Under the pieces are notes generated by a model. It ran no database searches and had not been told where the DNA came from. It saw nothing but the letters and a program-made list of their open reading frames with translations. Shown here one piece after another: positions 38,971 through 62,976 of a DNA stretch of 64,000 nucleotides (position 1 is the first letter of the stretch; every line of letters starts with the position of its first letter). Source of the DNA: Phytophthora colocasiae (taxonomy: Eukaryota; Oomycota; Peronosporomycetes; Peronosporales; Peronosporaceae); assembly GCA_018806915.1 (NCBI GenBank), contig JAGKQI010000021.1, forward strand, positions 434,001 to 498,000, written 5' to 3'. The position numbers were made by a program, and so were the translations under genes.

Positions 38971-41133
38971 GTGCCTCTGCCGGTTGAATTTGTGGCAGAA
39001 GAGCATTTGCATGAAGTGAAAATGCGTGCAGTGAAGGAGAGTTTGCCGGACGACGTGAATGAGAAGTCCATGGCAGATGACGACAATTGCAATGTGGAAA
39101 GTTCGTCGAGTGAGTCGGACGGAGATGAACTCGTAGAAGAACCTGTACAAGTTAGACCTGGACGAGCTGCTGGACGAAGAGCGAGACGGCAGCGTGCTGC
39201 GAACCAGCAACAACAACCAGTGAGAAGGTCCAACCGAGTGCGACAACAAAATGTAAGGCTTAGTAACTACCAGTTGCTAATGGGTGCCGAAGTTGAAGAC
39301 CCGGCCAACGTCGAAGAGGCAATGGATTCGCCGCAGAGGAAGGACTGGGAAGATGCGCTCAAGAAGGAGTACGCGTCTTTAATCAAGAACGGAACCTGGA
39401 AGCTGGTGAATCGCCCTAAGGACGACGATGGACGGTGGATCAAGGTCATGACTACCAAGTGGGTCCTGAAGGTGAAACGTGATGAGCAAGGCAGAGTGCA
39501 GCGCTACAAGGCGAGACTGGTCGTACATGGATATGAACAACGATTTGGACATGAATACTGGAAGACATACTCACCTGTAGTACGCTGGATGACAATGTTG
39601 ATTGTGCTTTTGCTGGCTCTGTTGCTTGGGCTGGAGGTCGATCAAGGTGACTTTGAGACGGCATTCCTGAACAGCAACATGGATGGTGCAAAGATTTACG
39701 TGGAGCAGCCTAAGGAGTTCGACGACGGAACTGGCAGGGTGTGTTTCCTGCTTAAGGGTCTGTACGGATTGAAACAAGCTGCTAGACTATGGTATCTGAC
39801 TTTGCACAAGCGCCTAGAGAAGCTTGGCATGAAGCGAAGTGCGTTCGACGTGGGCCTGTACTACAAGTGGATTGACGGACGGCTCTTGATGGTGACCGTG
39901 TATGTGGACGACATGTTAATCATTGGAACTCGCTGTGACATCGACAAGATGAAGAAGGACTTGACGGAAGAGTTTGCGTTGAAAGACATGGGACGAGTGC
40001 ACTACTTACTGGGTATGGAGGTGGATTACGTGCCTGGGAAGAAGCTGTGCATTTCGCAGACGGCATACATTGATAAGATCCTGCAAAAGTTCCAGATGAA
40101 GGATGTGAAGACGGTGAGGTCGCCGCAGCAGCACAACGAGAAAGTCCTGCCGATTGAGCGGGATGAGAGCAAGATCAATGATAAGAACTTGGAGTACCAG
40201 GAGTTGGTTGGTGCGCTGCAGTACCTTGTGACGTGTACCCGCCCGGACATTTCTAATGCGGTGCGGAACCTAAGTCGACATACAGGAAGCTACACAAAGG
40301 AGAACTTTGCGGCTGCCAAAAGGGTGCTGAGGTACCTGAAGGGTACAAGGACGTATGGGCTGGTTTACGTGGTGAATGACTCGGACTTGAACGAGGGTTT
40401 ACAAGTGAGCGCATATTGCGATGCGGACCATGCGAACTGCCCGGATACGTCACGATCGGTTACTGGCTACGTACTTCAGCTGAATGGCCACAGCTTTGGA
40501 TTCAAAAGCAAGATGCAGGCGTCTGTGACGGATGATACCTGCAAGTCAGAGTTGGTGGCTGCAAGTACATGTGTGGAGGACTTACTTTGGGCAAGGAAGC
40601 TGCTCAAGGAGCTGAAGTTCAAGCCAGAGGTTGGAAAGCTGCTGATGGACAATCAAGCGGCTATTAAAGTTTGTTCCGACGCCGGCAATTTTAACGGCGT
40701 GAAGCGCTACGCTAAGAAGAGTCGGAAAATTGCGGAGCTGGTGATGAAGAACAAGGTGGACATCGAATACGTCTCGACGGAGGATAACGTCGCTGACATG
40801 TTCACCAAGGCACTGGGCCCGCAGCGATTCGAAAAGTTGCGAGCGGGACTCGGGGTGAAGGATGTTGATGGCGCCAAGGAGCGTCAGAACACAGAGGAAG
40901 GCGTGGTTGAGCGCCTGCACGATGGTCAAGGCGTGGTAAAGCGTCGAAGCGTGCGTCTGGCCAAGAGTCAGGAGAATAAAGCTGCGGTCAAGCAGTACAT
41001 GGCTAAGAGCCAGGATGTTGACACTGTGGTCAAGCAGTGCATGGTCAAGAGCCAGGATAATAAAACTGCGGTCAAGCAGTACATGGCCAAGGACCAGGAT
41101 GTTGACACTGTGGTTAAGCAGTGCGTGGCCTAG
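38971..41133 (+). pseudogene. Copia 1 reverse transcriptase and RNase H, with repeat tail
   Basis: RT domain (RVT_2) from about 39330 (WEDALKKEY, TTKWVLKVKRDEQG) with the catalytic Asp in QGDFETAFLN and the YVDD box (VTVYVDDMLIIGT) near 39900. RNase H near 40410-40680 has CDADHANCP, KSELVAAST and LMDNQAA. After the RNase H end (NVADMFTKALGP) the frame continues for about 95 codons into a 14-residue tandem repeat (VKQYMAKSQD type). This tail is unusual for Copia. This part of pol is open throughout but lies downstream of three lesions. Confidence 0.87.
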
Positions 41134-41258
41134 AGCCAGGAAGATTGACACTGTGGTTAAGCAGTGCGTGGCCTAGAGCCAGGAAGATTGACACTGTGGT
41201 AAAGCAGTGCGTGGCCATGAGCCAGGGTAATGAAGCTGTGGTTGAGCAGCGCAAAACG
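40963..41258 (+). repeat. 42-bp minisatellite at the 3' end of Copia 1
   Basis: About seven units start near 40963, 41005, 41047, 41089, 41131, 41174 and 41217. The first five spacings are 42 bp, so the reading frame is kept and gives a 14-residue repeat. The units from 41131 have an extra base and carry TAG. It ends 100 bp before the 3' LTR. Confidence 0.85.
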
Positions 41259-41365
41259 TTGGCAGAAGATCGGACGAAAGCCGAAGCCAGCGGAAGTACT
41301 GTCTAATGTGATTCGGCCAACGGCTGATGTTGGCAGTGACACGGAGGCTTAGTTCCGGGGGAGTT

Positions 41366-41680
41366 TGAGCCGACGGGTTCTGGAGACTTCCCGGAGAAGA
41401 ACTTTCGCCTGTGTCAGGTTCCGTCACGGTTGAGTGACAGGAAGGCCAGTGACCATCTTGATCGATGGGTCCAGCCTAAAGGAGGTTTTGTGCCCGAGGC
41501 TTTCCTCCTAATAACAATCAATATTACTTTGGAATTTACCTTCTACACAACAAGTCTATTCCTTTCTTACCTCTTGCTGGAGAACGAGAACACTCGACGC
41601 ACCAAGGAGACGCTGGAGTACCTGCACAACAACAAGGATCAGGAAGACAAGACAAAGGACAAGCGTGCTAAAAGCTGCTA
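41366..41680 (+). repeat. 3' LTR of Copia 1
   Basis: 315 bp, preceded by the purine-rich CCGGGGGAGTT (41356-41365), the likely polypurine tract. It is followed directly by ankyrin gene sequence (ACTTCCAGG). Confidence 0.92.
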
Positions 41681-42435
41681 ACTTCCAGGTGTCCAGTGGA
41701 GCATGCGAGGTCCATCGCATCTGTAGTGCATCCTTCTGTTCTATTCTCATGAAGCCACTTTACCACATCTAAATGACCCTTAAACGCCGCCATATCCATT
41801 GCGTCAGTCGTGCAGACCTCGGTTCGGTTCTCATGTAACCACTTGACGAATTCTAAATGACCACTTTTCGCCGCATTATCAATTGTGCACTTCATACAGC
41901 CCGCTTTGCAGCCTTCTGTTCTATTATCTCGCAGCCATTTCGCCACTTTGGACTTACCCCATCGCATTGCCCACTCAATTGCCTTCATTCTGCACCCCTC
42001 GCTTCGGTTGTGATGCAGCCACTTGACCATTTCAAAGTGTCCACGCCGAGCAGCCGCGTACATGGCTTCTTTGGTGCATCCTTCGCTTCGGTTGGCATGC
42101 AACCACTGGACTACCGACAACTGACCATATACCGCTGCCCTATCCATATCGCTGGCACTCCACTCACATCGGTCGGCGTGGAAATCTAACAACCACTGCA
42201 AAATATGCACGTGACCATCAATGATGGCAGAGGACAGCAACTCGCCCCAATTCACCTCAGTGTTCCTGGCTGCTATATATGACAGTAATCGCACTGAACC
42301 GAGCCTGCAAGCGCCCCATACGGAGCCCACCCCCAGGAACTTGTCGATATGAAGAACAACATTCGGGAGATCACGAAACGACAGACACTCACGGCAAACC
42401 ACGCGGACAGAGGTGAAAACTAGGAAATCGTCCAT
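41681..42435 (-). pseudogene. Ankyrin-repeat protein, N-terminal part
   Basis: ATG at 42435 (MDDFLVFTSVRVVCRECLSF), a short F-box-like or capping region (LPNVVLHIDKFLGVGS), then ankyrin repeats of the WLH.NR.EGC type up to 41681, where the frame runs into the LTR and stops at 41668. The part from DMDRAAVYG onwards (41681-42149) duplicates 35727-36195. The full gene would have encoded roughly 430 residues by overlap of the two parts. Confidence 0.8.
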
Positions 42436-43053
42436 CGATGAAGCTCTTTGTTGATAAATATCGAAGTTCACTTAGTGGTCATGACTTTAGCAGTCGCTTC
42501 TTGTCTAAGATATTTCCTTACTAGTAAATCAATTTATTTCATTCACTCGTGCACTAGTTTTATTAACAAAATATTCTCACTGAATACGTTTACTTCAGAT
42601 ATTATGCAACTAGCATATTTTTGTGTAATTATTTTGACCGAACATAACCTTTCCATCACCATATATCTTTGAGATGGCTACAGCATACGAAATTCAGGAA
42701 CTTAAATTCAAAATCGCACTTTAAAAGCTAAGCAACTTGACGTATTGGGATATCTACCACCGTGACGACAGTTGAGAGTGGGGAAGTAGTAGTAGTGTTT
42801 TGGATGCAAATTGCAAAGTGAGGTTCATTTGAACGTTAAAAGACAAACCCACCGGGTCAGCCTCCCAGGGCTGCCCACCACTAGAAAACTAGCGCCATCA
42901 GAGATATCAGATGCTCTCAGGGATGCTCACCGCTAGAAGTCTAGCGCCATCAGATGTCTGATGCTCCACTAAGGTCGCGGTGGCTTGTGCCACTTGTACC
43001 TACATCGGAAATGCAACTCGCCCCCCACAAGTGGTGCAAGGGTAACTACGGAG
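42436..43053. other. Upstream of the ankyrin gene and probable 3' LTR of Copia 2
   Basis: No gene. Left half AT-rich, the ankyrin gene's 5' flank. Right half follows the stop of the minus-strand RNase H: on the minus strand GTGGGGGGCGAG (43023-43034) is a good polypurine tract, so an LTR should begin near 43022 and run leftwards. That LTR holds two imperfect 40-bp repeats (near 42881 and 42928) built around CTAGCGCCATCAGA. I cannot place its left end. Confidence 0.45.
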
Positions 43054-43583
43054 TCATCCCGTCGTATCAACCAAGCAGCACATGGCTCGCTTGCGACGGA
43101 ACTCCGTTCTTGCCAGGGCCTTAGTGAGTAGATCCGCTGGCATTTCGCCAGTCGGAGTATAGTCCGCTGTCAATTCACCTTTGTGAATCAGGTCCTTAAC
43201 CGCGTGATACTTCACGTCCACAGTCTTTTGAGTCTCGCTGTGCCCACTGCGTTGGAGGCGCTTGATTGCTGGCTGGCTATCCATTATCAGTCTTAGAGGC
43301 AGCTCCTTTTGCAGTACTTCATTCGCAATGGCTTGTACCATCAGCGCGTCTTCAATGCCAATGTCCGCCGCAATATACTCAGCGGCCGTGCTTGATTTTG
43401 CTACGATAGTTTGTTTCTTGCTCGCCCATGCGACCGGGCATCCGAACAAATACACCACTGATCCTAATACGCTTTTTCGGTCTGCTCGATCGTTAGCCCA
43501 GTCAGCGTCCGTGGCCACCACGATATCGTCACTAGTTGGCTGGAACTTCATTTTCAAACCCGTTGTTGCACGAAGGTGCCGGA
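43054..43583 (-). pseudogene. Copia 2 RNase H, separated from its RT by a Gypsy insertion
   Basis: The minus strand encodes the end of a Copia pol: [12 protein letters not shown] (before the first listed Met), [28 protein letters not shown] and [12 protein letters not shown] (RNase H catalytic Asp, Glu, Asp), then [19 protein letters not shown] and DLLTKALAR. The upstream part of the same pol continues at 60446-62607 on the far side of the 16.9-kb Gypsy element. Without the insert and one CGGA copy the two parts meet at KYL / RHLRATTG, with a one-base frame offset. Confidence 0.88.
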
Positions 43584-45186
43584 TGTGACGAGGTGGGTGA
43601 ACACTTTCCGGACTTTCTGAAAGAAAAACCCGGTCGCCCAGAACGTATAGCTGGTGGCCAGTCCGATTCTGGAAGGAAACTTCCAGATGACACTTGAGAA
43701 CTGGGGTCAGTCTCTACCTTCCGGGATCCAAATGGGTATCCGGAAGGCGGAGTTGGCGTGTGACCTTGTGGTTATCCTCCTTGGTGTCGTTTGTCTTCGA
43801 GTATCCGAAGGGTATCACCAGGTGAGTTACTTTCAGGTGTGATCAGATCCAAAGATCCCAAGTACCAAAAGTACTTCCAAATGCAGTTGGTTTTCTGGAA
43901 GGCAAAAGACTATTAGCAGAGTCCTCTTCCAACAGTTAACCAATACAATACAGAGAGTTAATATGCAAAACACGTAGCCGCTCTTATTCTTTGTGGCCCT
44001 TGAGCGGTGGGCACTCCCAATGCCAGTCGACGGGGTCTACTTCCGGAACACTGACTCAGTTCCGGGACCCTAACAAGCGCACCACTTCCGGATAACCACT
44101 TGGTTTCCGGAAGACAATATCCAAGATCAGGATATCCAGATGCCTGTATATCCAAATATCCAAAATCCAAATGCAATCTAGACTAGGAATCCAGATGCAA
44201 ACGTCCAATCACACAGTAGTTAATTCAATACAGTTCCAAGGGGCCAACTACTAACAACCTCCCAAAACGCAGTTATAATATGAAATGTGAATCCGGAATC
44301 CGGATTCCAACTGGAATATGAAATAGGAAGATCCCTTCCGGATGCGCCGCCGGATCACTTACCCAACTTGGTCTCGAACCTTTGGTGGAGAGTCCCGCGG
44401 CGATGTACGCAGTCGACGCGGCCGTACGCTGGCTCAGCTAACTCGAAGCCCTCTGACAAGAGGCTGGTCCGCAGTGCTTTGCAGTGTCTTCCAGGAAAAC
44501 CTTCCAGAAGACCACTTGCGCCCTTGGTGGCAAATTGAACTCTCTGTTATTTATATAAAGTCTTCTGCTAAAGATTCTGCTAACATCTTGTTTTCACTAT
44601 AGGAAGCGCACACTCATCAGGAGGCGCGTGTCTCTGGCGCGGAACCCCGAAGAATTCCGGCTGGTGCCGAACACATCCTGGTCGGTCGTCTTGGTCGGTC
44701 GGTCTTGACTTGGCTTGAGTATACTCCGAACCTCAATGTCCATACTGGGTACAAATCAGGCAGGGTCCGGACGCCTTTGGTCATCTGGATTCCCGATCCT
44801 TGGAATCCAAAAGTCCTCAGTTCAGCACTGGAAGCATGTATCCGGAATACACTTGGTCTGTGTATGGGCGACTGGATTCTTGAGCCCTTAGCCCTGACTG
44901 GAATGGCATCCAGATTCCCGAAATCTGGATCTGGATTCCGGAAGTACGCACCAGGAATTCACTTGGGCACCACATGGTGGACTTGATTCCTGAATAGTGG
45001 ACTCCGATCGTGGTCGGGCATCCGGATTCTGGAAGTCCGGATTCCGGAAGTCCTAAAGCAATAAGGTGAAAATGTGTTCCACAGCTCAGTCCCAGGTACT
45101 CGATGCCTCAGCCAATCACCTCTCGACATATTGGGTGGCTCTGGGAGGCGGTGTCCAGATAGAAAATTTGAATCCACAGCTTCACA
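43584..45186 (-). repeat. 3' LTR of the Gypsy element (left copy)
   Basis: 1603 bp, TGTGACGA at the left edge and CTTCACA at the right, so TGTGAAG...TCGTCACA on the sense strand. It carries 14 TCCGGA hexamers by my count. Short ORFs inside it are present in both LTRs and are not gene-like. Confidence 0.93.
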
Positions 45187-45665
45187 ACCGTCCCTCTCGT
45201 CAGGAGCTGTCATTGAGGAATTTACCTCCGAGCTTGACTGGTCCTTATGAGACGAAGCGTGGGCAAGTCGTCCAGATCACCGGATCACCGCAAACATCCA
45301 GATCACAATCCCGCAATTTACAACGGCACTTGTCGTCGAGTTGCGTTTCCGGATTCCATACATCCAAATGCCCATCACGCAAATGTCGAACGGTCCGGTT
45401 TCAGGCGTCCCACACTGTATCCAGGTTCTACCCACCCGGGTCTCACGTATCCGGGTTCACCCTATCCGGGTTCAGGAAGTCCAAATCACTACACTGGGTC
45501 ACATTCCATCCATCAATTGGCTGACGTGGCTTCTCTTCTGCGTCCGGTCCCAAGCGCCCCGGTCCCAGCGCACGTCCAAACGGCAAGAATCATTCAGTCG
45601 GTCCACACACATTTCGCAATTTCAAGGCTCCAGATCACCCAAGCGATTCCGCACGATCACATCGA
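45187..45665. other. Internal sequence between 3' LTR and antisense ORF
   Basis: 479 bp without a clear gene. On the sense (minus) strand the purine-rich GACGAGAGGGACGGT just before the LTR is the probable polypurine tract. On the plus strand this would be the 5' leader of the antisense ORF. It has short repeated phrases (TATCCGGGTTC, CACCCGGGTCTC). Confidence 0.4.
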
Positions 45666-48488
45666 ATGTCAGCAGACGCTCCTTCGACGTTCACGGCGCC
45701 TCCACCAGGCAACACCTCGGTTGAGGGCGACACTGGTGGCGCTGAGTCGCACCAGGACGACACGGCAGTGACAGGGGGTCCAGATAGCGTTGTTGATGAG
45801 GGGAGACATGGTGCTGAGGGCACGGAGACTTGCCCGCCCGCAGGTGGAGGCGGAGGCGTCCCTGAGGACGATGATGAGCCACTCAATCGAGTCTACCCGA
45901 AGTTCGTCACGCACAAGAGTGCGAAGGAGTTCGGGCTGTCCGAGGGCACCGCGTTCGGAAGTGAATCTTCGCGTCCCATCTACTTTAAGACCCCTCCATC
46001 CCACGAGCGCGACGACAACTTGCAAGTGGTCGGCGTTCCAGCTTCAACAGTGCATCGTGATGGCAACAGTTTTCTTCGGAACGGCTATGGCGGTTTGGAA
46101 GTCCTGATGCATTCTGAGAAGCAGTCCACCAGGGAAATGGCAGTGCTACACGACTTCTGCGCCGGTCATCTGGACCTTCGGGAATTCATCCTGACACCTT
46201 GGCCAGCTTCGCTTCCGGATGACCAGCTTCACGCACTTCTGGATAGCGTCGCCGTCAAGAGGGAGATCGCCAGCCTTGTTTCGGAGTACGACCCTGAGAA
46301 TCTCGCGCAGCGCGTCTTTGGAACCGTCTCTGCTCTTCGGAAAGTCATCCAGAAGTGCGTCCGGACGCAGTCACTGCTCGAAGATCAGGATCCGGATCTC
46401 GTCAATGTCGGCAGGGTTCACGATGAGCTCGCCGAGCTTCGTCGGGACTACCAGTTGGTAACAAGTCATCTGGATCTTCGACACGCGGAAGCTGTTTCTG
46501 AGAAAGAAGAGGCTCTCCAGAACGCCCGTGACGACATCAAGCACCTGATGGAGGAGCATGACCGCGACAAGAGGGGTCTCCGGAAGCAGGTCGAAGATCT
46601 CACGAAGCGTTTGGATGATGCCCGGACGCAGAATCGCATTCTGGAACACCGCATCCAGAAACTGGCCTTTAATGCTGTCGACGTCATGAACTTCCTTGGC
46701 GCCGGCGAAGGACAGTCGACTGTCACTGTGAACTGGCAACGGCTTCTGGAACTCCTGAAGCACTTTCAGAACGGCACAACTGTTCCTTCGGAATGGCGTA
46801 CAGTCATCAGTGTCATCGCCACGGATGACCCAGGACACACTTCGGCCCCTTTCGTCGAACTGCATCCCTCTAACGGAAGTGATGACGGTGATGCCAAGGA
46901 GAGCGATTCGTCGTCGTATCTGGATCTGAGTCGTGGTTCTTCTGGCGCACCTGCATCCGGAAATCCAAGTTCCAAGTCTTCTTCCAAGCGCAAGCGTTCC
47001 AGTTCCGGATTCAAGTCTTCGAAGAAGGTCCCAAGGGCTCCCGACGTGATTCAGGCTCGTCCTTCTGAGTGGATTAAACATTCGGATGACGACTGTCGGA
47101 GTGACAAATATCCTCTAGTCTGGACGGAGAAGCAAGCTCGAGAGTCCTTGACGGACTACCCGGTTGTCTGGAGTGACTTGCGTCTGGATCTTCAGAAACT
47201 CATGATGTCTGGAGTCAAGTATACCGGGGCTCTGGAATGGATTCGTGAAGACCGTGCAGTTCACGTGGCTTTCCAGTTGAAACCTCTCGTGGAGATGCTC
47301 ACTCGGATGATGTTCTGGAACAAGTTGGATGACATTCCGTGGACCAAGTACGTCCCGCGTCGGTACTTCCAGATGGCTGAAGGTGTTCTCGATGGACTTC
47401 AGGATGAAGGTATCGAGCCAGAGTACTGGGGACCTCTTGTGGATGGAGAAGACGACGTCGAAGATCCGGATCCGGAAGCCTTGGTTACGGAAACGGTGGA
47501 TGACAAGACAGTGGATGAAGACTTCATTCCAGATGAGACAGAGGTGGTGCATCCAGATGATGATCAGGGCCACTCAAGTTCTCGCCGTGATCCTGACGTT
47601 CAGTCTCCGAAATCCAAGCGTCGTCGTTCCAACCGCTCTCCCAAGTCAGCATCCAGGGGCTATCGTGCACATGACCGGTCAACCTCCTATCTAGCTGCCA
47701 AAGACTTTGGGAACCTGACAAGACTCGACAAGCAGACCATCGAGAATCCGACCGAGGGAGTGGCATCTTGGCTCCACTACGGAGTTCGTATGAAGAAGGG
47801 AGATCCGACGTCCACAGCGACCACTCAGACTCTCGGGTTTCCGGATTCCGCTCCCAACAGGTTTGATTTCGACCTTCTGAAAGAGCGCTTCGTGATCCGG
47901 GCGTCCGAGCTTCCTCCGCTTCTGGATGAACGTCCTTGGGAACACGCATACAGTTGTCGGCCTCGGGATCTACTCTTCCATAAGCGCAGCGATCTGGATG
48001 CGAACGCCTTAAAGGCTCTTGACACCTGGCTTTCTTTCGTGAGCGGTCATCTCCAGGCCTTCTGGGAAGAAACTCATTGGCTCACGTTCGACACTTCCGA
48101 AGCTGTGCATCCGAAGCTCGTGCGGATCTACTCCGAGCGATCGAAGCGCCACTCGTCCCTTAGGAAGAAGGCGATCCCGTTGCTCCAGAAGATCTCTTCC
48201 AAGCTTCCAAAATCCATCTGGAATGAGACGTGCGTCTGGAAGTACCCTGCGAAACTCTGTCACTGGATCCTGATGGATCCAGAACACTTCAAGCCTGGGA
48301 CTTCGGAACCATACTCGCTCAAGGAACAGCTTGGGATTCTGGATGCCATGGAGCCTGCACGTGTTCAGTGGAGTTTCTCCACTTCGGATCAGGATCGCAT
48401 TGCTTATCTTCCACCGGAAGTCCAAAGCACCCTGATTCCTGCGGATCAGCGCATCCGGATCGATGCCCTTTGGAACTACGGAAACTAG
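45666..48488 (+). CDS. Antisense ORF of the Gypsy element, 940 aa, unknown function
   Basis: An uninterrupted 940-codon frame opposite to gag-pol, between integrase and 3' LTR. It does not overlap any sense gene, so it is not a shadow. I find no known domain. Residues 1-70 are acidic, Gly/Pro-rich; 70-235 look globular (RVYPKFVTHKSAKEFGLS, FCAGHLDLREFILTPWP); 250-338 a strong coiled coil (VHDELAELRRDY to ILEHRIQKLAF); a Ser/Lys region at about 436-456 (SSSKRKRSSSGFKSSKK) and KSKRRRSNRSPKS near 650 are probable nuclear signals. Trp-rich globular segments follow at 470-610 and 700-935. Its intactness beside damaged gag-pol argues for use. Plant Tat-type elements such as Grande carry antisense ORFs at this position; homology is not claimed. 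Confidence 0.75.
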   Translation: MSADAPSTFTAPPPGNTSVEGDTGGAESHQDDTAVTGGPDSVVDEGRHGAEGTETCPPAGGGGGVPEDDDEPLNRVYPKFVTHKSAKEFGLSEGTAFGSESSRPIYFKTPPSHERDDNLQVVGVPASTVHRDGNSFLRNGYGGLEVLMHSEKQSTREMAVLHDFCAGHLDLREFILTPWPASLPDDQLHALLDSVAVKREIASLVSEYDPENLAQRVFGTVSALRKVIQKCVRTQSLLEDQDPDLVNVGRVHDELAELRRDYQLVTSHLDLRHAEAVSEKEEALQNARDDIKHLMEEHDRDKRGLRKQVEDLTKRLDDARTQNRILEHRIQKLAFNAVDVMNFLGAGEGQSTVTVNWQRLLELLKHFQNGTTVPSEWRTVISVIATDDPGHTSAPFVELHPSNGSDDGDAKESDSSSYLDLSRGSSGAPASGNPSSKSSSKRKRSSSGFKSSKKVPRAPDVIQARPSEWIKHSDDDCRSDKYPLVWTEKQARESLTDYPVVWSDLRLDLQKLMMSGVKYTGALEWIREDRAVHVAFQLKPLVEMLTRMMFWNKLDDIPWTKYVPRRYFQMAEGVLDGLQDEGIEPEYWGPLVDGEDDVEDPDPEALVTETVDDKTVDEDFIPDETEVVHPDDDQGHSSSRRDPDVQSPKSKRRRSNRSPKSASRGYRAHDRSTSYLAAKDFGNLTRLDKQTIENPTEGVASWLHYGVRMKKGDPTSTATTQTLGFPDSAPNRFDFDLLKERFVIRASELPPLLDERPWEHAYSCRPRDLLFHKRSDLDANALKALDTWLSFVSGHLQAFWEETHWLTFDTSEAVHPKLVRIYSERSKRHSSLRKKAIPLLQKISSKLPKSIWNETCVWKYPAKLCHWILMDPEHFKPGTSEPYSLKEQLGILDAMEPARVQWSFSTSDQDRIAYLPPEVQSTLIPADQRIRIDALWNYGN

Positions 48489-48752
48489 GAGGTGTAGTTC
48501 AGATCGAGTGAGTCTTCCAATTCTCCATGTTTTCCATACGTAATTCGTCACTAATCACTCGTAATACACCTCACTTCTCCGAAAGTCAGCTTTTGTTCAT
48601 CTCCTTCATATCCATCCTTCTGAAACCCAGGATTCCAAAGTTCCATCATAATCCGAAATCAGTTTCCAATCGTAATCAAATCAAAGTTCAATCGGTAGTC
48701 ACAGTTCAGGAATCCCCTTCTCAAAACTTCCCGGATGATAGCATCCGGAAGT
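48489..48752. other. Spacer between antisense ORF and integrase 3' ends
   Basis: 264 bp, AT-richer than its surroundings, between two convergent stops (48488 and 48753). It probably holds 3' ends of both transcripts. Confidence 0.4.
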
Positions 48753-50483
48753 CTAGACTTGGGGATGGTCGTTCCCGGCTTGCATAGCCTGGAACCTCGC
48801 TCGCGCCCTTGCCCCTTGATTAAATTCGTAAAGAAGGGCACCGCAGCTTAACTGTGACACTGGAAGCCATTCCGGATCCGGATAGCCTTTCCATTTGACC
48901 AGGTATTCCCGATTCCTTTTCGACGTCCGAGTACGTTTGGACCATCGAAGATCCAAAATCTTTTCGACTTCGTACTCGTTCTCTTCGGCATCCGGATTCC
49001 AACTGTCTTCCGGAAGAAGGGCAGCGTCAAAGTCATCGTCCTCGTCCACTTGGATCTCCGTGGTAGGACGTTTCGGGAAGAGTGCTCGGGGTTTCAAGCG
49101 GCTGATATGCACCCAAGGGTTGACACGATATCCCGTGCCCTCGACCTTGAGTTTCACTCGGAAGTCCTGATGCACTTCAGCAATCCGGAATGGTCCATGC
49201 CACATGTGGGCCAGTTTCCTACTTAGCCCAGTCTGGACTTTCGGAATATATAACCACACGGAATCGCCTTCCGAAAATCCGGATTTCAGCCTTTCCGAAA
49301 GCTCTTTCCACTTTTGCGTTTGGATTTCGGAACGGTGACGCTTGGCTTTCTTCTGAAGTCCTTCTGCAAAAGCCACAGCGTAGCTGTAGTCCCTCTGCAT
49401 TTTTCGTCTCCATTCGTACGCTGACCTTTCAGGAATACTATGTGGCTTTGGGCCCAGCATTGCTGAAATTGTACTCTGGGCGCCCCAACCATGAATTAAA
49501 TAGAAGGGGGTTTCCAGGCGCGTTGCATCGAAAGAGGTATTCAGAGCGAACATCAGCCTTTCCACATGGTCATCCCAATCACTTTGATCAGCTTCCATAA
49601 TATACGCCCGGATGCTTCGAACTACCGTCTGAACGGAACGTTCCTGCTGGCCATTTGCCTGCGGACGGTATCCCAATGTTGCTCTTTGGAGACTCCCAAG
49701 TAGATTCCGGAAGCACTCGAAGACGGCACTCATGAATCGGGGATCCTGATCGTGTCGGATCAGGGAACTTGATCCAAACCTCTGGAATACCACTTGTTCA
49801 TACACTTCTGCAACATCTTGGGCAGTCGTCGAAGACATGGGCTTGCACATCACGTATCCGGAAAACATATCCTGAAACAGGAGTAGGAAAGTGTTTCCGC
49901 GTGCGGATTTTGGAAGGTGCGTCACGAAATCCATCGAGACAACTTCGAAAGGACATGATGGCTCGATGTTTCCAGGTGACGGACCTGGATTCGGAGGCCG
50001 TCCCTTTCCGGATGCACAATCCACACACTCCTTCAAATGACGTTCCACATCTGCATACATCCCAGGCCAATAGTATTCTGAAAGCAATTTCTCATGAGTC
50101 CTCCGGATGCCCTGGTGTCCACCTTGGAAATCTTCGTGGGCATAGTGAAGCATATCAGAACGTAAGGATTCCGGAACCACCAATCGAAGTTCTCCCAGAA
50201 AATCTCGAGGTCGCTTCTGGGTGACTGTGGACATCCTGAAGAGAATGTTTCTGGAATCCAAAGTGAACAAATCAGCCACCTTTGCAATCTTCCGGAGACG
50301 TTTATGCGAAAACCTCTGGAAATCCCCTTTCAGGAACGCCTTCAGTTCAGACAGGTATTTGTCGGCATCCTGATGGACCTTGATCCGTCTCCAACGCTCG
50401 GCTTGAAGTTCCAATGGTCCCATCGGAGGGGTATCCGGATCGTTTCCTTCTGGATCCCCAGCTTCCGCAATGACAGCCATCAC
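48753..50483 (-). CDS. Gypsy integrase with C-terminal chromodomain
   Basis: About 576 codons. Zinc site HEDFQGGHQGIRRTHEK...CVDCASGKG near residues 125-170. Catalytic core with Asp in VVSMDFVTHL, Asp in LIRHDQDPRF and Glu in NGQQERSVQT. GPY/F-like block (MWHGPFRIAEVHQDF, VHISRLKP). Chromodomain near residues 500-555 (YEVEKILDLRWSK, EYLVKWKGYPDPEWLP). Chromodomains are known to guide integration to marked chromatin. The frame starts with GTG-ATG overlapping the RT stop by four bases (GTGA), so it is probably expressed by a frameshift from the RT frame. No stop within the domain set. Confidence 0.9.
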   Translation of the reverse strand: MMAVIAEAGDPEGNDPDTPPMGPLELQAERWRRIKVHQDADKYLSELKAFLKGDFQRFSHKRLRKIAKVADLFTLDSRNILFRMSTVTQKRPRDFLGELRLVVPESLRSDMLHYAHEDFQGGHQGIRRTHEKLLSEYYWPGMYADVERHLKECVDCASGKGRPPNPGPSPGNIEPSCPFEVVSMDFVTHLPKSARGNTFLLLFQDMFSGYVMCKPMSSTTAQDVAEVYEQVVFQRFGSSSLIRHDQDPRFMSAVFECFRNLLGSLQRATLGYRPQANGQQERSVQTVVRSIRAYIMEADQSDWDDHVERLMFALNTSFDATRLETPFYLIHGWGAQSTISAMLGPKPHSIPERSAYEWRRKMQRDYSYAVAFAEGLQKKAKRHRSEIQTQKWKELSERLKSGFSEGDSVWLYIPKVQTGLSRKLAHMWHGPFRIAEVHQDFRVKLKVEGTGYRVNPWVHISRLKPRALFPKRPTTEIQVDEDDDFDAALLPEDSWNPDAEENEYEVEKILDLRWSKRTRTSKRNREYLVKWKGYPDPEWLPVSQLSCGALLYEFNQGARARARFQAMQAGNDHPQV

Positions 50484-53400
50484 TCGCGCAGACTCTGGTA
50501 ACGGTTCCGAATCTGGTCCGGGAAGGTCGTTGTCATCCGGGATTCCGGATTCCTGATATCTGAAGGATGGGCCTCCGACAGTTCTGATTTCACCAACTTC
50601 TCTTGGATTTTAGAAACAAGTTCCAAATGCCTTAGGTCACTTTCGTCGGAAACCTCCCAGGATTCTCCTTGAACCAATGTCTTGGTCGTCAGGTAGTCGG
50701 CAGCCTGATTGTACTCTCGTTTGAGATGCACAAATCTGACCTTCTGAAATCTGGATTTCAGAACTTCCGCTTCCGCAAGGTGTTTCTGAAGATGTGGTTG
50801 GTTACAGTTGATCAGTCCTTGTACTTGCTGAATCACAATTCTGGAATCTCCCACAACCACCAAATCCTGAATGCCTCTTCCAGATGCCATATTCATGCCC
50901 TTCAGAAGTCCATGGTACTCAGCGTCATTCACGGTGACGTCATCCAGAATGAAACCTCGGGCTTCCAGAACCTTCCATCCAGGTAGCTTCCAGAGAACAC
51001 ACCCGCAACTTCCTTTCCGGGTGGAAGTCTTGGCAGCACCATCGAAACTCAGGATAACACCTTCGTAGTTCGCTTCCAACATCTCGATGCTCACTACTGG
51101 CGGCTTCCGGATGCGTCCTTTCGAAGGGATCAAAGATTCCGAAATTTTATCCAGATGCTCTCGTGGGGTTATCCCAGCAGCCATTATCGCAGCCAACCCG
51201 TCTTCGTCCCTTTGAACCTTCCGGATATCCAGATTCCAATGTGAAAGTGCAAGTCCCCAAGGAACACACCTACCATCAGCAGACTTCGAGGTGATGACCC
51301 ACTTCAGGACGGAGTATCGGGTGTACACAATCAGTTCGGACTGCTCGATCAGCGTTCGGAAGACCTGAAGTACTCTCAGGATCGCAATGACCTCCTTTTC
51401 CGCAATATGATAACGGATTTCGGAATCATTCAGGACGCGGCCAGTATACCGGACAGGGTGGATCACACCGTCGTATTCCTGACCGAGGACAGCACATGCG
51501 GCCCATGCATTGGCATGCGGAATGATTACGAATGGTCGATTTCTATCAGGATGCCGAAGCAATGGGGTCGAGACGATCTTGTGCTTCAGGATTCCAAATG
51601 CCTCCTTCGCCTGATCCAAATTCCTTCCCGCCCTGATCTGCTCATCCGAAAGTTCATAGAGAACAGCGGCAATAACCGGGAAATCTTCAATGAATTTGTG
51701 ATAGTAGTTCAGGCTTCCGAGGAACGACTGCACCCCTTTCAGGGTTTCCGGAAACGGAAGATCCAAAACACCTTTTGCAATCTTCGGGGTAGCTCGGATT
51801 CCTTCAGCACTGATTTCGTGGGACAGGTACGGGATGGCTAGCTTTCTAAATTCACTCTTCGGGAGGCTCACCGAGATGTTCCAATAACGCAGCCTGAATA
51901 GTAGTGCATCCAGATCTTCACATAACTGATCCCAAGTCGGCGCGCCGTGAGCGATATCGTCGATATACGAACTGCGTCCCAGTACCGGGTTCATCTGTGA
52001 AGGAGCTGGGATATTCCTCTGGAACACGGTCATTATATCTGAGAGAATTGGCACTTGGATTCCTGAAGGGGAACTTCCAGATTCCAAACTTCCGGAATCC
52101 AGATTCTTAGATGGAGTCAACTTCAGAAAATCCAAGACTTCCTGATCCACTTCTGCTTCCTCTTCCGGGGATAGGCGCACAAACCCCCACAAGCAGTTAT
52201 TGATTACTGCCTGATATACCAAAGGGGCGTTCTTCAAACCGAATGGCATCCGGATCCACTGAAAGTGTCCAAAGGGGCACACGAAAGCGGAGATCAGCTT
52301 GGCACGTTCAGACATCCTGATAGCCCAGAATCCACTGGCCATATCCAAACTCATGAACCACATTGCGCTTTCGAAGCCAATCAGGAGATCGTCAATCAGG
52401 GGAAGCGGATAGTTGGATAACACAATAAATCCGTTTACCACTCGATAGTCAATACACATCCGGATGTCAACACCGTTCTTCTTCAGGACAATAACAATCG
52501 GGGATGCCCATGGAGATTCCGAGTGCTCGATCAATCCAGTTTCCAAAAGCTTCTTCAGAAGTTCGTACACTTTGACCGCTAAGTGAGGAGCGATAGAACG
52601 TGGGCGTTGCGCGACAGGTTTAGCCGTTCCAACATCCAGATCGCAAATCACACCTCTGGCGGGGGCTGGAGCTGCATTTCCATCGCCCAGAAAGATACTG
52701 CGATGCCGTTTCAGGATTCCTCGAAGCTTTCGCTCTTCTTCTGGAGTAGTCTTTCCGGGTTCTCCCACATCTGCCTTCTCGATATTACACTTCGGGCTTA
52801 GCTCGTGTACTTCCGGAAGCATGACGAGTTGATCCTTCAAGTGTGACAACATATCACTCCCTTCATGCACATACACAGCTGGTTCCAGGGCAAGCTCTTC
52901 CGCATTCAGATGCAGACACCTGACAAACTTCGTTTCCAGCTTCAGGATGGCCTTCTTCACAACTTCCAGATTAAATTGTCTTCCTGATGGATCCGTTCCA
53001 GAATCCTCTTCTGCGTCAGGCAAACCGTCTGGAATCTCGTCCGTTGGCACACTCTCATCCATGGAGATCGCATCAAACCACTCGTCACCATCGGAATCCA
53101 GAAAACCATCGCCTTCTGGAACCTGTTGTCTTCCTGAAGTCTCATTCGAAATTCCTTCCCGATGTTCATTTACAGTCAATATGCTATCAGGATTCTGGAA
53201 TTCCGAAACGGCGGCATCTGGAAGCGGCCTTTCACGTTTCTGAATATCCTTCGGGGGATCTTGTAGTCGAACCATGCGGACTTCAGAACCACCCCTGGGA
53301 GGTCTCATCAAAAGTTTCTTGGGCCAGGGATATTCCGGCTTCTGGACACTTGGGGGTTGGGAAGCTTGGATCGCCTGAAGGTATCTCCGTTGACGTAATA

Positions 53401-53737
53401 CTTCCTGATGAGAATTGGTGTTCTCGTATATCAGGACTTCCCATTCACGATACCTCCGGAGTCCAGGTCTGACGAACCTTCCAAATGGATAGCATCCGTA
53501 TTCCACAATCTGGGCGACCGGGGTGTTTGTGTCGATCCAAACATCCTTATCCGAAATATTTACCACCTTCACAGCGACCGCCCAGGACTTCGCCCCATAT
53601 ATCAGCTGCGTCACCCAGCGATCACTTCTGCCAGCCCAGACCACTTCACGTTGCGGATTGCTCTGCCCGTAATTAATCCGGACGACAGCTTGTTCACCTG
53701 GTCCAAGTATCAAGGTTTCCGGACTCCGGACTTCCAA
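50480..53737 (-). CDS. Gypsy reverse transcriptase with decayed RNase H plus second intact RNase H
   Basis: 1085 open codons; an upstream protease lies in the same frame across one TAG. RT is at about residues 380-670: KPVAQRPRSIAPHL, SLDMASGFWAIRM, MPFGLKNAP and YIDD (SSYIDDIAHG) near 589. The usual Gypsy RNase H follows but has lost catalytic Asp: HANAWAACAVLGQ where tDAS is expected and YTRYSVLKW where TDH is expected. A second RNase H near 895-1030 has all four acidic residues: LSFDGAAKT, NDAEYHGLL, VVGDSRIVI and NQAADYLTT. The order RT, dead RNase H, live RNase H, integrase matches dual-RNase H elements known from plants (Tat) and oomycetes. An acidic spacer of unusual length separates protease and RT. 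Confidence 0.88.
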   Translation of the reverse strand: MEVRSPETLILGPGEQAVVRINYGQSNPQREVVWAGRSDRWVTQLIYGAKSWAVAVKVVNISDKDVWIDTNTPVAQIVEYGCYPFGRFVRPGLRRYREWEVLIYENTNSHQEVLRQRRYLQAIQASQPPSVQKPEYPWPKKLLMRPPRGGSEVRMVRLQDPPKDIQKRERPLPDAAVSEFQNPDSILTVNEHREGISNETSGRQQVPEGDGFLDSDGDEWFDAISMDESVPTDEIPDGLPDAEEDSGTDPSGRQFNLEVVKKAILKLETKFVRCLHLNAEELALEPAVYVHEGSDMLSHLKDQLVMLPEVHELSPKCNIEKADVGEPGKTTPEEERKLRGILKRHRSIFLGDGNAAPAPARGVICDLDVGTAKPVAQRPRSIAPHLAVKVYELLKKLLETGLIEHSESPWASPIVIVLKKNGVDIRMCIDYRVVNGFIVLSNYPLPLIDDLLIGFESAMWFMSLDMASGFWAIRMSERAKLISAFVCPFGHFQWIRMPFGLKNAPLVYQAVINNCLWGFVRLSPEEEAEVDQEVLDFLKLTPSKNLDSGSLESGSSPSGIQVPILSDIMTVFQRNIPAPSQMNPVLGRSSYIDDIAHGAPTWDQLCEDLDALLFRLRYWNISVSLPKSEFRKLAIPYLSHEISAEGIRATPKIAKGVLDLPFPETLKGVQSFLGSLNYYHKFIEDFPVIAAVLYELSDEQIRAGRNLDQAKEAFGILKHKIVSTPLLRHPDRNRPFVIIPHANAWAACAVLGQEYDGVIHPVRYTGRVLNDSEIRYHIAEKEVIAILRVLQVFRTLIEQSELIVYTRYSVLKWVITSKSADGRCVPWGLALSHWNLDIRKVQRDEDGLAAIMAAGITPREHLDKISESLIPSKGRIRKPPVVSIEMLEANYEGVILSFDGAAKTSTRKGSCGCVLWKLPGWKVLEARGFILDDVTVNDAEYHGLLKGMNMASGRGIQDLVVVGDSRIVIQQVQGLINCNQPHLQKHLAEAEVLKSRFQKVRFVHLKREYNQAADYLTTKTLVQGESWEVSDESDLRHLELVSKIQEKLVKSELSEAHPSDIRNPESRMTTTFPDQIRNRYQSLRE

Positions 53738-53755
53738 ACGTAATCCCTTCTTCTG

Positions 53756-54370
53756 CTAGTCGAAAGTTCTTCCGGAAAGCATTACGTTTTCTTCATCAGG
53801 AAGTTGGACCAGTCCTTCACGAATGCACAACCGCACTCCAGCAGAATACATAAAATCCATTCCAAGCAACACGTCAACACCTTCACCAATATTCGCCACC
53901 CAAAGTTCCAGAATATAAACCACATTCAAACCCAGGGTAAGTTTCACTTCGGTTCGGGCAGTGATGATCGTCGGGACGCCTCCCAATCCGGATACCCGAA
54001 GCTGTTTTCCAAAATCCAGCTTGAGTTTGAGTCTACGCGCAAAATCCAAACTCAGCATGCTCACGGAAGCTCCGGAATCCAGAAGGATGTCTGTCCTGAC
54101 ATTGCTCACTGCACCATGCACCATCGCAACTCTCTTCGACGTCTCCGAACGGTGTTCTTCCCACCATCCGTAACTTTCACCAGGCTTCAATCTGAATTCT
54201 ATTGGAGTGTCATCCCGATTGTCAGGATTCCAATCATCCGACCTTCCGAAATCATTGTCATCCGGAAATTTAGAATCTGGAAGGAGAAAGTCGACATCTT
54301 GAGTCACAGTCATGCATTGATGGTTAGCTTGTCGTTTCAACTCTGGACCAACGTACGCTAAGACACACAA
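53756..54370 (-). CDS. Gypsy aspartic protease
   Basis: 204 codons with the active site DILLDSGASVSMLSLDF and the distal VDVLLGMDFMYSAGV, a retropepsin pair. The frame ends in TAG (53756-53758, context GAC TAG CAG AAG). The same frame continues without further stop to the RT start at 53737, so a protease-RT fusion by readthrough is possible. Confidence 0.83.
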   Translation of the reverse strand: MCVLAYVGPELKRQANHQCMTVTQDVDFLLPDSKFPDDNDFGRSDDWNPDNRDDTPIEFRLKPGESYGWWEEHRSETSKRVAMVHGAVSNVRTDILLDSGASVSMLSLDFARRLKLKLDFGKQLRVSGLGGVPTIITARTEVKLTLGLNVVYILELWVANIGEGVDVLLGMDFMYSAGVRLCIREGLVQLPDEENVMLSGRTFD

Positions 54371-54423
54371 TTCTGGGGGTTTCTTGAGCCCGGCGCGTTC
54401 TGGATCCCCATCCAGCGGGCTTC

Positions 54424-55033
54424 CTAGTTTAACGGTTGTTCCCCAGAATCTGCATCTCCATCCAGAAGTTTCTTCCGGATAGCAGTCGGTATATCCAAAG
54501 CTCCTTGTTGAACGAGACTCTTGAGATCCCGAAGGGCCTCCAGCTCCTCACAATGCCCATCGTGATACTTGTTGCAGAAATCACACTGACGCATCCGACA
54601 GAATCGCACAGGATGGCTCCTTCCGATGACAGCGTTCACACTCGATATCTGCCCAACAATCCTCCTTGACATGTCCGAAATTGCGGCAGTTCTCACAGTA
54701 CCTTGCACTGTAATTCGGATTCCGGAAACCTTGGCGTCTGGAGTCTTGATGCTCCGAAGATTGTTGGTCACCTTGGCGTCCTGAAGGGGATCGGGGCCTC
54801 CAGCCTCCCTCTTGAAGAATCTTGAAGACGGTATCTGAGAGATCATCCATGGTCGGGAATCCGGAATCTGGATCGCCAGACTTCGTAGACGCAGATGCTT
54901 TCGAGGCTTCCAGAGTCATCTTGTCTTCCTCATCCTGAAAACGGACGTGTCGGTCAGGATCTTCAGAGTCAGCGTCACTCTGAGCAGTGTATGCTCTTCC
55001 GGATCCGGGAACGCTTTGGGCGAAACTTATCAC
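54424..55033 (-). pseudogene. Gypsy Gag C-terminal zinc knuckles, in two frames
   Basis: First knuckle YCENCRNFGHVKEDC (about 54690) in the frame 55033-54581, then CERCHR; the second knuckle CDFCNKYHDGHCEE is in another frame (54846-54424). One base near 54625 decides the frame. The first frame overlaps the end of the long Gag frame (54975) by 59 bases, so another shift is needed there. Nucleic-acid-binding part of Gag. Confidence 0.65.
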
Positions 55034-57563: not shown

Positions 57564-58726
57564 CCAGGCACCAAATTCACAAATCCAAATCCCGCTTCGA
57601 AAAGCATTGTCTGCAGGACTGCGATGCTTTCACGAGGCGAAAACTCCTTCGGCGGGATCATGGCACCCTGAAGATCTAGTGCCTTTCCAAATGACCGACG
57701 TTGAATCTGGAGTTCTGAAATCCAGGCGTCCGTCTGAGCCGGCATCAACATCCGGCGGTTCAGGTGTTCCGAAGTCATCAAGGCAGCCTAAATGAAACCT
57801 TCAGGATTCAGGTATAGTGGCGGCCAATCATATCCGACATCAGGTGCGAAGCTCCTTTCGGAATTGTCACGTTCCCAACGCCTCACTTGTTCAGCCACAT
57901 ATGCCTTCATCTGGATTCCGCTCATCTGGACTTCCGGCGTCCCCGGTGGTGCTTCCGGAGATTCTTCCATTCTGGAATCCGGAATACCAAACCTGGCAGC
58001 TTCTTGACGAGGCGCTTCTGGGGGCGCCGAGAACGGCGGCTCATCAGGATACAATGTTGACATCCGGATTTCCGGAATCACTGGCGAAGACATGTTGGTA
58101 TCCTCAAGCACAGTTTCTTCCTGAACCGGCGACAACGGGCGAGCTTCCTGCTTGACTCGTGGCGACTCTTCTCGAACATCAGGTTCGGCATCTGGATTCG
58201 CACCTTCCGGAGGAGAGTCCTAAACTCCATCCTCCGTAGGGTCTTCGATCTCGACAGCATCATCTCCCGACGCTTCTCTTCCAGAATCCTCAGCATCACT
58301 TCCGGCGACCTCAGACTCCTCACCAGCCGTGAACTCCTCCAGACCGGACTCGTTCTCGGCTTCCACATCCGGATCACCTTCCGATCCGGACTCTTCTGCA
58401 TCCGGATCCGACATGGATCCAGATTCCACCTGCTCAGGGTCGTCGTCTCCTTCCGAAATCTCTCCCGAATCACTTCCATCCAGACTTGCGTGGTGCGCTT
58501 CCTGAACGGAGGATTCAGATTCTTCTTCCAGATGATCCGACGACTCCTTCGCCTCTTGGGCAGCCTTTCGCTTCGCAGCGTTGGCCTGACGAGCTTTCTT
58601 CATAATAGTATCCAAATCCTCGTGCTCTTCAGGCTGCTGCCCCTTCAACCGACGCGACGATCTGGATGCCATTCCGCTTCCAGAATCCGCGTCTCCCCCT
58701 CTGCGTGCGCTTTCACTTCCAACCAT
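57425..58726 (-). pseudogene. Gypsy ORF1, extra reading frame before Gag, with two in-frame TAG
   Basis: From MVGSESARRGGDADSG (ATG 58726) one frame runs to 57425, interrupted only by TAG at 58220-58222 and TAG at 57788-57790. The first part is acidic and Ser-rich with a helical MKKARQANAAKRKAAQEAK. The second has PRVKQEARPLSPVQEE and VAEQVRRWERD. The third has SIAVLQTMLFEAGFGFVNL. No domain recognised. Plant dual-RNase H elements of the Ogre type also have an ORF before gag. Either readthrough, or early decay. Confidence 0.6.
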
Positions 58727-58822
58727 CACAACTACGATCAGAAAGTTAGTTAGCACTCAGACCCCTGAAACTAATCAAAAAAAATATATAAAAATAACTC
58801 GGTGATATCCTTTCGGTATCAA

Positions 58823-58840
58823 ATCCGGGCACGCGCACCA
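58823..58840 (-). promoter_or_regulatory. Primer-binding site of the Gypsy element
   Basis: On the sense strand TGGTGCGCGTGCCCGGAT starts two bases after the LTR end (TCGTCACA). Its complement reads ATCCGGGCACGCGCACCA, the 3' end of a tRNA: T-stem CCGGG, acceptor strand CACGCGC, A, CCA. It is an ordinary tRNA 3'-end primer, in contrast to the Copia elements. I cannot name the tRNA. Confidence 0.82.
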
Positions 58841-58842
58841 GC

Positions 58843-62643: not shown

Positions 62644-62976
62644 TGAGGACAACAGTGGAAGACGCGTGGATGCTGCAATACGATTGGCGGTCTACCTTGG
62701 ATACACTATTCTGATTGGACGAGAACTTCAATTTGCTGATCTCAAGATGTGCACAAATCGTTCCCGTTACATCAATCGTTCCCGTTACATCAAGCGTTCC
62801 CGTTTCACAAGGCGTTCCCGTTACATCAAGCGTTCCCGTTTCACAAAGGTCTACAAGGGGAGCTCAAGGAGAGCAAGGGTAGATTAGTGAATGCGGGCTA
62901 ACTCAATAAACTTACTTTTGGATTTACTTCCTCCTACTCACTTCACTATCAAGCCTCGTTCGCTATACTCTCAATT
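62644..62976 (+). repeat. 5' LTR of Copia 3
   Basis: Proposed 333-bp LTR from TGAGGACAAC to CTCAATT, judged by similarity in length and first bases to Copia 1 (TGAGCC, 315 bp) and by the primer site that follows. The right-hand LTR is outside the window, so the start is inferred. It holds a five-unit 18-bp tandem repeat. Confidence 0.65.
62759..62848 (+). repeat. Five 18-bp tandem repeats in the Copia 3 LTR
   Basis: Units start at 62759, 62777, 62795, 62813 and 62831. All begin CGTTCCCGTT; the second half alternates between ACATCAA(T/G) (units 1, 2, 4) and TCACAA(G/A)G (units 3, 5). Placement in an LTR suggests an enhancer-like array. Confidence 0.9.

Follow-up and report, generated by a model that had tools for sequence, protein, structure and literature searches.

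We analyzed a stretch of 64,000 nucleotides of Phytophthora colocasiae contig JAGKQI010000021.1 (the window), which contains a Gypsy LTR retrotransposon of 16.9 kb at positions 43584-60445. Its LTRs are 1,603 bp long, with 7 mismatches between them; the 5' LTR lies at 58843-60445 and the 3' LTR at 43584-45186, both on the minus strand, and the target site duplication CGGA is found at 43580-43583 and again at 60446-60449. A candidate polypurine tract (45188-45198, minus strand) adjoins the 3' LTR and is conserved in element families A, B, C, and E. Two nucleotides from the 5' LTR lies a putative primer binding site that begins with TGG (58814-58840, minus strand). The sense genes, also on the minus strand, comprise the main gag frame (54975-57563), which is interrupted relative to siblings; an aspartic protease with the motif LDSGAS (53756-54370); a reverse transcriptase (YIDD) with a Gypsy RNase H and an additional RNase H, RVT_3 (50480-53737); and an integrase (H2C2, rve) with a C-terminal chromodomain (48753-50483). 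Pfam identified both RNases H above cut-offs (PF17917/PF17919 over positions 708-833 of the pol frame, PF13456 over 898-1018), as well as the chromodomain PF00385 at residues 504-555, after the integrase (35.0 bits against a cut-off of 25.1). Judged by the dual RNase H and the chromodomain, the element fits the Chronos type of oomycete retrotransposon.

Between the integrase and the 3' LTR, antisense to gag-pol, the window copy carries an ORF of 940 codons on the plus strand (45666-48488, ATG to TAG), with the 3' LTR upstream of it; it is for these 940 codons of the antisense gene that selection is shown. The first-pass annotation had described an uninterrupted ORF here that does not overlap sense coding, and both statements hold: the other five frames over 45666-48488 contain 24, 50, 11, 31, and 28 stops, so no sense gene overlaps the ORF. 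The integrase frame ends at 48753, approximately 265 bp from the stop of the ORF, and the two are arranged tail to tail. The 7 LTR differences predict approximately 6 substitutions in the ORF after insertion, against a count of 7 private ones; therefore, the openness of this single copy is weak evidence. The annotation had also set damaged sense genes against an intact antisense ORF. The sense stops and frame changes are genuine in the window copy, but they provide no argument for selection, because only 3 of 23 family A siblings carry neither a stop nor a frameshift over the 940 codons (the other 20 are damaged), and because the sense frames of family A siblings are longer (pol up to 1,599 codons, gag up to 1,443 codons). 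The real evidence for an antisense gene is the comparison among copies, not one open copy.

A homologue of the antisense ORF (aORF) is present in the same place at all 30 integrase loci examined, out of 76 integrase matches in the same genome, which contradicts the possibility, raised in the annotation, that other copies lack it. For family D, one locus was fetched out of 44 rows, and the homologue is present there. The genome contains 57 matches to the ORF, and when 30 aORF loci were taken with 1.5-kb flanks, an LTR was found in 28 and an integrase in 28. A host gene captured once, also considered in the annotation, is ruled out by these 57 matches and by the place beside the integrase at 30 of 30 loci. 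Diverged families keep the ORF open at 57% and at 43-48% identity, and in 12 rows, at 43-57% identity, the alignment runs over 800 residues or more without a stop. Relatives of the protein occur in eight named Phytophthora species, and the named relatives found were all Phytophthora; a search of IMG/VR and GTDB contigs confirmed no DNA of relatives. One derivative, cut by deletion to only about 330 codons, has multiplied (L042, L043, and L047) next to pol frames of 1,777, 1,957, and 895 codons, so the C-terminal two thirds of the protein are not strictly needed in cis.

We compared shared and private variants among 23 family A sibling copies, which derive from 25 family A loci of 30 returned, with two overlapping pairs merged. 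Family A fragments without a returned locus were left out, and segmental duplication may account for some of the copies; the merged count replaces a count made before merging (shared 49 N:41 S, private 148 N:63 S). In the antisense ORF, shared variants were mostly synonymous (28 N:38 S; 12/13/41 by codon position), and private variants looked neutral (169 N:66 S; 76/78/81), a difference with p=1.6e-5. For the integrase of the same copies, the counts were 9:13 shared versus 46:20 private (p=0.022). The signal was absent from the shifted-frame controls apart from a shadow in one minus frame (31 stops); a shifted plus frame differed as well (p=0.016), but with the direction reversed. Because the shared variants are mostly synonymous and the private ones neutral-looking, we take these counts to show that purifying selection acted on the antisense protein while the lineage transposed. 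Stops accumulating at neutral rates, which the annotation had named as evidence against the ORF, do characterize the inserted copies, but the shared variants show constraint.

The antisense ORF evolves faster than gag or the integrase (IN). From family A to family C, identity is 88-90% for IN, 63% for gag (the L027 and L029 elements), and 43-44% for the aORF; gag identity is 60-68% in most of the diverged rows and 54-68% across all of them. The aORF differs most between families whose LTRs differ too (73-83%). Between families, pS was 0.71-0.76 and pN 0.28-0.40, values near saturation at which dN/dS is indicative only; the L029 integrase values, distorted by a stop or frame change in that copy, were excluded. 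Distances for the aORF and IN correlate (rho 0.87, 91 pairs, 14 of 30 loci; the other 16 were dropped because they had no C-terminal match over 300 residues), which shows, as judged from pairwise distances, that the antisense gene diverges in step with the integrase. Modular swapping of the antisense gene between elements is not favored, given this correlation and the similarly saturated synonymous divergence in the aORF and IN.

The antisense gene has two candidate translation starts, which would give a protein of about 940 or about 1,080 residues. An upstream ORF of 174 codons (45247-45771, plus strand) starts at an ATG ("MRRS") found in copies of families A, B, C, and E. Among the 14 family A copies with the start region fetched, the upstream frame is in register with the main ORF in 9, where it starts at a conserved ATG near the LTR and adds 134 to 139 codons. 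In the window copy, a short length difference beside the ATG of the 940-codon ORF puts the upstream segment in another frame; the in-frame upstream start is lost in L002, L007, L019, and L026 too, bringing the out-of-frame extensions to 5 of 14. Only one of the three undamaged copies, L006, also holds the extension in frame from its ATG. The extension lacks codon bias within family A (shared variants 5/7/5 by codon position), although between families C and E one of its blocks is conserved as protein (0/0/8).

Two candidate oomycete core promoters, Inr/FPR-like with 2 mismatches each to the motif defined in PMC3599244, lie on the plus strand. P1 (45210-45225) is 37 nt before the upstream ATG and has 2 to 3 mismatches in families A, B, C, and E. 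P2 (45609-45624) is 57 nt before the ATG of the 940-codon ORF; it has 0 mismatches in the family B copy L021 and is absent from L030 at 3 mismatches. Promoter-like motifs begin 33 to 57 nt ahead of the ATGs, and the published range from TSS to ATG is 32 to 144 nt (PMC3599244). The conservation of P2 is not necessarily that of a promoter, because the motif overlaps a conserved peptide.

The architecture of the protein is shown less firmly: it comprises a long coiled coil, linkers of low complexity in which two basic clusters recur, and a C-terminal half that is helical and rich in Trp. The predicted long helix or coiled coil covers residues 243-332 (46392-46661, plus strand), with AF2 pLDDT of 68-89 for residues 251-330 and weak coiled-coil matches. 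The basic clusters, both NLS-like, are KRKRS at residues 441-445 (46986-47000, plus strand), present in 6 of 16 homologues, and KRRRS at residues 651-655 (47616-47630, plus strand), for which 11 of 16 homologues have a KRRR- or KKRRK-like sequence. That the protein has no recognized domain, as first annotated, was borne out, with none above cut-off among 11 Pfam matches up to E 10. TRP28 (PF04195) was absent from these single-protein matches and from the matches listed for an 11-member alignment, the best 25 of 40 families. Known domains and PDB sequences yielded only weak matches, to coiled coils and, for a basic stretch, to ribosomal protein uL22. Foldseek found no fold match at E<=0.001 with the second of two AF2 models as query (pLDDT 54, compared with 40 for the first).

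We propose that the ORF makes up the coding part of an accessory gene, antisense to gag-pol, of Chronos-type LTR retrotransposons of Phytophthora. Its product would probably be a nuclear coiled-coil regulator, expressed from a promoter of its own. The antisense gene itself is well supported, we infer its mechanism, and our confidence in the proposal as a whole is evenly balanced. The gene would be transcribed separately from an oomycete Inr/FPR-type promoter (P1 or P2) proximal to the 3' LTR. Its protein would enter the nucleus and oligomerize, and may act on the element itself, regulating its transcription, its silencing state, or its integration complex. An enzyme would fit the faster-than-gag evolution less well than a factor that tracks targets specific to the element or belonging to host defence.

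Ordinary dead sequence, either a chance-open ORF or a recently captured host gene, is very improbable: the stop or frameshift in 20 of 23 copies is what it would predict, but it is contradicted by the shared-variant constraint and the presence of the ORF at 30 of 30 integrase loci, and relatives in eight species also speak against it. The findings also suggest that a group of hypothetical proteins recorded for Phytophthora in databases are mobile-element genes rather than host genes. The coiled coil, large size, constraint, and carriage by the element would also suit a particle or packaging component, that is, a second structural protein resembling env or a Gag helper, not a nuclear regulator, and structural proteins such as gag evolve fast too. 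However, such a component would require a separate antisense mRNA, presumably uncoupling its dose from that of Gag; the protein has basic NLS-like clusters, and no Gag-like or env-like Pfam domain is among the matches listed. We consider a packaging role rather unlikely.

An unlikely alternative to a regulator of the element itself is a counter-defence protein that blocks host silencing, like VANC of the Arabidopsis VANDAL elements. The way the aORF outpaces gag and integrase, with its largest differences where LTRs differ too, is consistent with this role, as is the report that LTR elements are major small-RNA sources in P. infestans (PMC3522703), but selection is purifying overall, not positive, and no DNA-binding domain was recognized. 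Small RNAs also bear on the distinctly unlikely case that the antisense transcript, more than its protein product, is what counts, with convergent transcription of the tail-to-tail antisense gene and gag-pol producing double-stranded RNA that feeds or tunes silencing: in P. infestans, they are described on both strands of Gypsy elements, and at one gene/Copia overlap they coincide with probable convergent transcription (PMC3522703). An RNA role alone would not predict codon-position-specific selection in one frame, although both roles could coexist, and a protein-coding antisense gene remains our preferred reading.

Comparable genes are carried by several other mobile elements. VANC proteins are anti-silencing proteins of VANDAL elements, which are DNA transposons; as element-borne accessory proteins they may be a working analogue of the antisense protein, but their carriers are other transposons, and the likeness would be one of role. 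HBZ of HTLV-1 is a bZIP protein, whereas no bZIP family is among the Pfam matches of the antisense protein. Like the gene described here, HBZ is an antisense gene of a retroelement, and its protein is nuclear (PMC11963269). Boty of Botrytis, a fungal element, is by its description a further non-plant LTR element with an antisense aORF behind pol (PMC7264820).

Chronos comprises LTR retrotransposons of oomycetes in the Peronosporales/Pythiales (Ustyantsev 2017, PMC5348765), and our element shares its Gypsy pol, Gypsy RNase H plus additional RNase H, and C-terminal chromodomain. The Chronos description has ORF1 and ORF2, and its main text does not contain the words antisense, opposite, ORF3, or additional ORF (PMC5348765); judged on that main text, the antisense gene appears to add a component to what was described. 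Among the papers listed by our literature searches, no title or abstract opening describes such a gene.

In plant Tat/Retand and Grande elements, most copies have an antisense aORF with nuclear features between pol and the 3' LTR, and the Grande ORF is reported to have its own promoter (PMC11963269, PMC7264820). Tat elements have a dual RNase H too, and Chronos seems only distantly related to them (PMC5348765). The oomycete elements share with them the dual RNase H and an antisense ORF behind the pol of a Gypsy element (aORF-3R layout), found at every integrase locus examined; unlike Tat/Retand, they give no TRP28 match and have a chromodomain. The parallel with plant Tat-type antisense ORFs drawn in the annotation stands for layout only, because no similarity to the TRP28 protein was found. 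It is conceivable, though rather unlikely, that Chronos, independently of Tat and with an unrelated protein, evolved the same full kit: an extra RNase H together with a nuclear antisense gene driven by its own promoter. The encoded protein would be a family-specific factor that recognizes DNA or RNA of the element that carries it and overrides silencing by the host. Most of the antisense accessory genes known behind pol belong to plant elements of the Tat lineage, in which what they do is unsolved. The occurrence of an apparently unrelated protein at this position in oomycete elements that also gained a chromodomain and a second RNase H suggests selection for the combination, not an accident of one lineage, and these elements offer a second system for testing the function of antisense accessory genes.

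It is close to certain that the antisense ORF at 45666-48488 (+), which encodes 940 residues, is a gene. Its stop codon faces that of integrase across about 265 bp, and each of the five remaining frames contains 11 to 50 stops there. The surrounding LTR retrotransposon (43584-60445, 16,862 bp, coding strand minus) has LTRs of 1603 bp each that align without gaps and with 7 mismatches, and a CGGA target duplication is present at both ends. On the element, Pfam identifies a protease, a reverse transcriptase, a Gypsy RNase H, a second RNase H of the RVT_3 type, an integrase, and a C-terminal chromodomain; an acidic segment 5' of the main gag frame (58220-58756, minus strand), with a TAG at its end, has no Pfam match.

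We searched the assembly holding the window (92.5 Mb, 105 contigs; window at C11:434001-498000) with the antisense protein and obtained 57 matches, which fall into divergence groups that we call families. Family A, to which the window copy belongs, has about 93-99% identity, besides more decayed fragments; family B has 55-57% (e.g., loci L021 and L025) and the family C types 43-48%. In twelve matches with 43-57% identity, the alignment covers 800 residues or more and contains no stop. The flanks of 30 fetched loci contained an LTR in 28 cases and integrase sequence in 28. A search with integrase gave 76 matches, and an antisense match of at least 127 residues adjoined integrase in all 30 loci fetched, several of which are elements already found with the antisense protein. 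Family D comprises 44 matches at 78-80% integrase identity; in the one locus fetched, the antisense flank has 262 open codons matching the C terminus of the ORF (32-35% identity to families A-C, 37% to a P. sojae protein). Judging from coordinates, a second family D element probably lies on contig C18. When the genome was queried with a short N-terminal homologue, 121 matches emerged. Twenty of them have 25-28% identity, and of these, 7 are located within or next to open frames of at least 1,075 codons (one of the 7 matches has two stops).

The protein has been selected while the lineage transposed, and copies decay neutrally once inserted, because variants shared among copies are mostly synonymous and private ones are not. 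We compared 23 family A copies, derived from 25 loci by merging two overlapping pairs. Shared variants comprised 28 non-synonymous or stop changes and 38 synonymous changes (12/13/41 by codon position), compared to 169 and 66 among private variants (76/78/81; Fisher P = 1.6e-5, or 2.7e-5 when five heavily decayed copies are dropped). Shared variants were not depleted of non-synonymous change in two shifted plus frames and two minus frames, and one shifted plus frame had a non-synonymous excess among them (P = 0.016); one minus frame, which has 31 stops, mirrors the wobble pattern of the ORF as a shadow. Integrase behaves likewise (shared 9:13, private 46:20, P = 0.022). Only the copies at L001, L002, and L006 are free of both stops and frameshifts across the 940 codons, while L007 has three one-base losses that sum to one codon and leave the frame open.

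Between families, Nei-Gojobori counts for A and B gave pS of 0.71-0.72 and pN of 0.28 in the antisense ORF and 0.66 and 0.053-0.054 in integrase; for A and C, the values were 0.73-0.76 and 0.39-0.40 in the ORF and 0.80-0.81 and 0.062-0.064 in integrase (L027). Synonymous sites are close to saturated in the ORF and integrase alike, consistent with a common age, and the antisense protein changes at least five times faster than integrase. Between families A and C, identity is about 88-90% in integrase, 63% in gag (L027 and L029 elements), and 43-44% in the antisense protein. Integrase distances and distances in the C terminus of the antisense protein are correlated (Spearman 0.87 for 14 of 30 loci, 91 non-independent pairs).

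In three loci (L042, L043, and L047), only approximately the first 330 codons of the ORF are present, next to pol frames that are 1777, 1957, and 895 codons long, respectively, indicating that this version is a deletion derivative that has multiplied. The ORFs of L042 and L043 share one end point; in L047, the copy contains a stop. These derivatives speak against a strict need for the full ORF, and the shortened elements are perhaps helped in trans.

The 940-codon part is the unit on which selection is demonstrated; translation could start there or upstream. The start region is present in 14 family A loci, and in 9 of them (L003, L004, L005, L006, L009, L012, L015, L018, and L023) the frame extends 134-139 codons further, to an ATG that opens the peptide MRRS and lies about 60 bp in from the LTR edge. 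The same ATG occurs in families B (L021), C (L029 and L030), and E (L042 and L043), and a 15-residue block in which C and E differ at 8 third positions and no others favors translation of the extension. Against it are the five family A copies in which this ATG is out of frame (the window copy, whose segment at 45247-45771 is open in a different frame from the ORF, L002, L007, L019, and L026), the lack of codon bias there within family A (shared variants 5/7/5, N:S 12:5), and the weak bias between A and B (65/57/70). In L027 (family C), a stop follows the upstream ATG two codons on. Copies of families A to E have an in-frame Met close to the 940-codon start, and several database models begin around it.

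Each start has a candidate promoter ahead of it. The union of the oomycete Inr (YCAYTYY) and FPR (MWTTTNC) motifs is present in 10-15% of P. infestans promoters, with transcription starting 32-144 nt 5' of the ATG (PMC3599244). Searching for YCAYTYY-N2-MWTTTNC, we found P1 (45210), starting 33-37 nt ahead of the upstream ATG, with 2 mismatches in families A, C, and E and 3 in B; it was unrecognized in the family D stretch. P2 (45609), starting 34-57 nt ahead of the internal ATG, has 2 mismatches in A and D, 3 in C (L027 and L029) and E, and 1 in L025 of family B; in L021 it is exact (0.016 such sites per kb of strand). It was absent in L030 (family C) at 3 mismatches. Because the background in the window is 0.55 (up to 2 mismatches) to 3.7 (up to 3) per kb of strand, single sites prove little. 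The core CATTYYNCAWTTT, chosen after seeing the sequence, occurs three times in the window (0.13 expected), and the other two sites lie within repeated blocks at 1-24 kb.

Those blocks belong to several long-repeat families at 1-24447. There are 2-5 copies per family, placed at intervals of about 4.6, 5.7, 8.0, and 10.3 kb, and inverted copies occur as well; the whole represents a gene or element cluster amplified locally. The element itself is inserted in a Copia pol gene, whose halves (41201-43583 and 60446-62575, minus strand) match consecutive parts of the Copia frame at 38971-41133 (32% each). Nearby are an ankyrin-repeat ORF (41668-42471, minus strand) with a DNA period of mostly 84 bp, a tandem repeat with a 42/43-bp unit (40958-41253) at and past the end of a Copia pol frame, and another with an 18-bp unit and core CGTTCCCGTT (62734-62848).

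The antisense protein has nothing above the curated cutoff in Pfam, and in PDB sequence searches it has only weak matches (E ≥ 0.03), namely coiled coils and ribosomal protein uL22. An AF2 model from 17 sequences (mean pLDDT 54, pTM 0.31) has a helix at residues 243-332 and helical C-terminal parts with pLDDT up to 84; a Foldseek search with it returned no match at E ≤ 0.001. Basic clusters recur among 16 homologues (KRKRS in 6, KRRR-like in 11), several of those without one being short models, and by the usual rules they are putative nuclear signals. A nuclear regulator is our best guess for the mechanism, with about an even chance of being right.

Relatives occur in P. palmivora, P. ramorum, P. 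megakarya, P. fragariae, P. rubi, P. oleae, P. cinnamomi, and P. sojae as gene models, which may be spliced around damage. The open-licence literature matches listed include no description of such an antisense gene in oomycetes. The element has the layout given for Chronos elements (PMC5348765), and the words antisense, opposite, and ORF3 are absent from the main text of that paper. Antisense ORFs behind pol are a kind described in plants (PMC7264820; PMC11963269), whose TRP28 domain was not found in our protein, and Boty provides a fungal case (PMC7264820).
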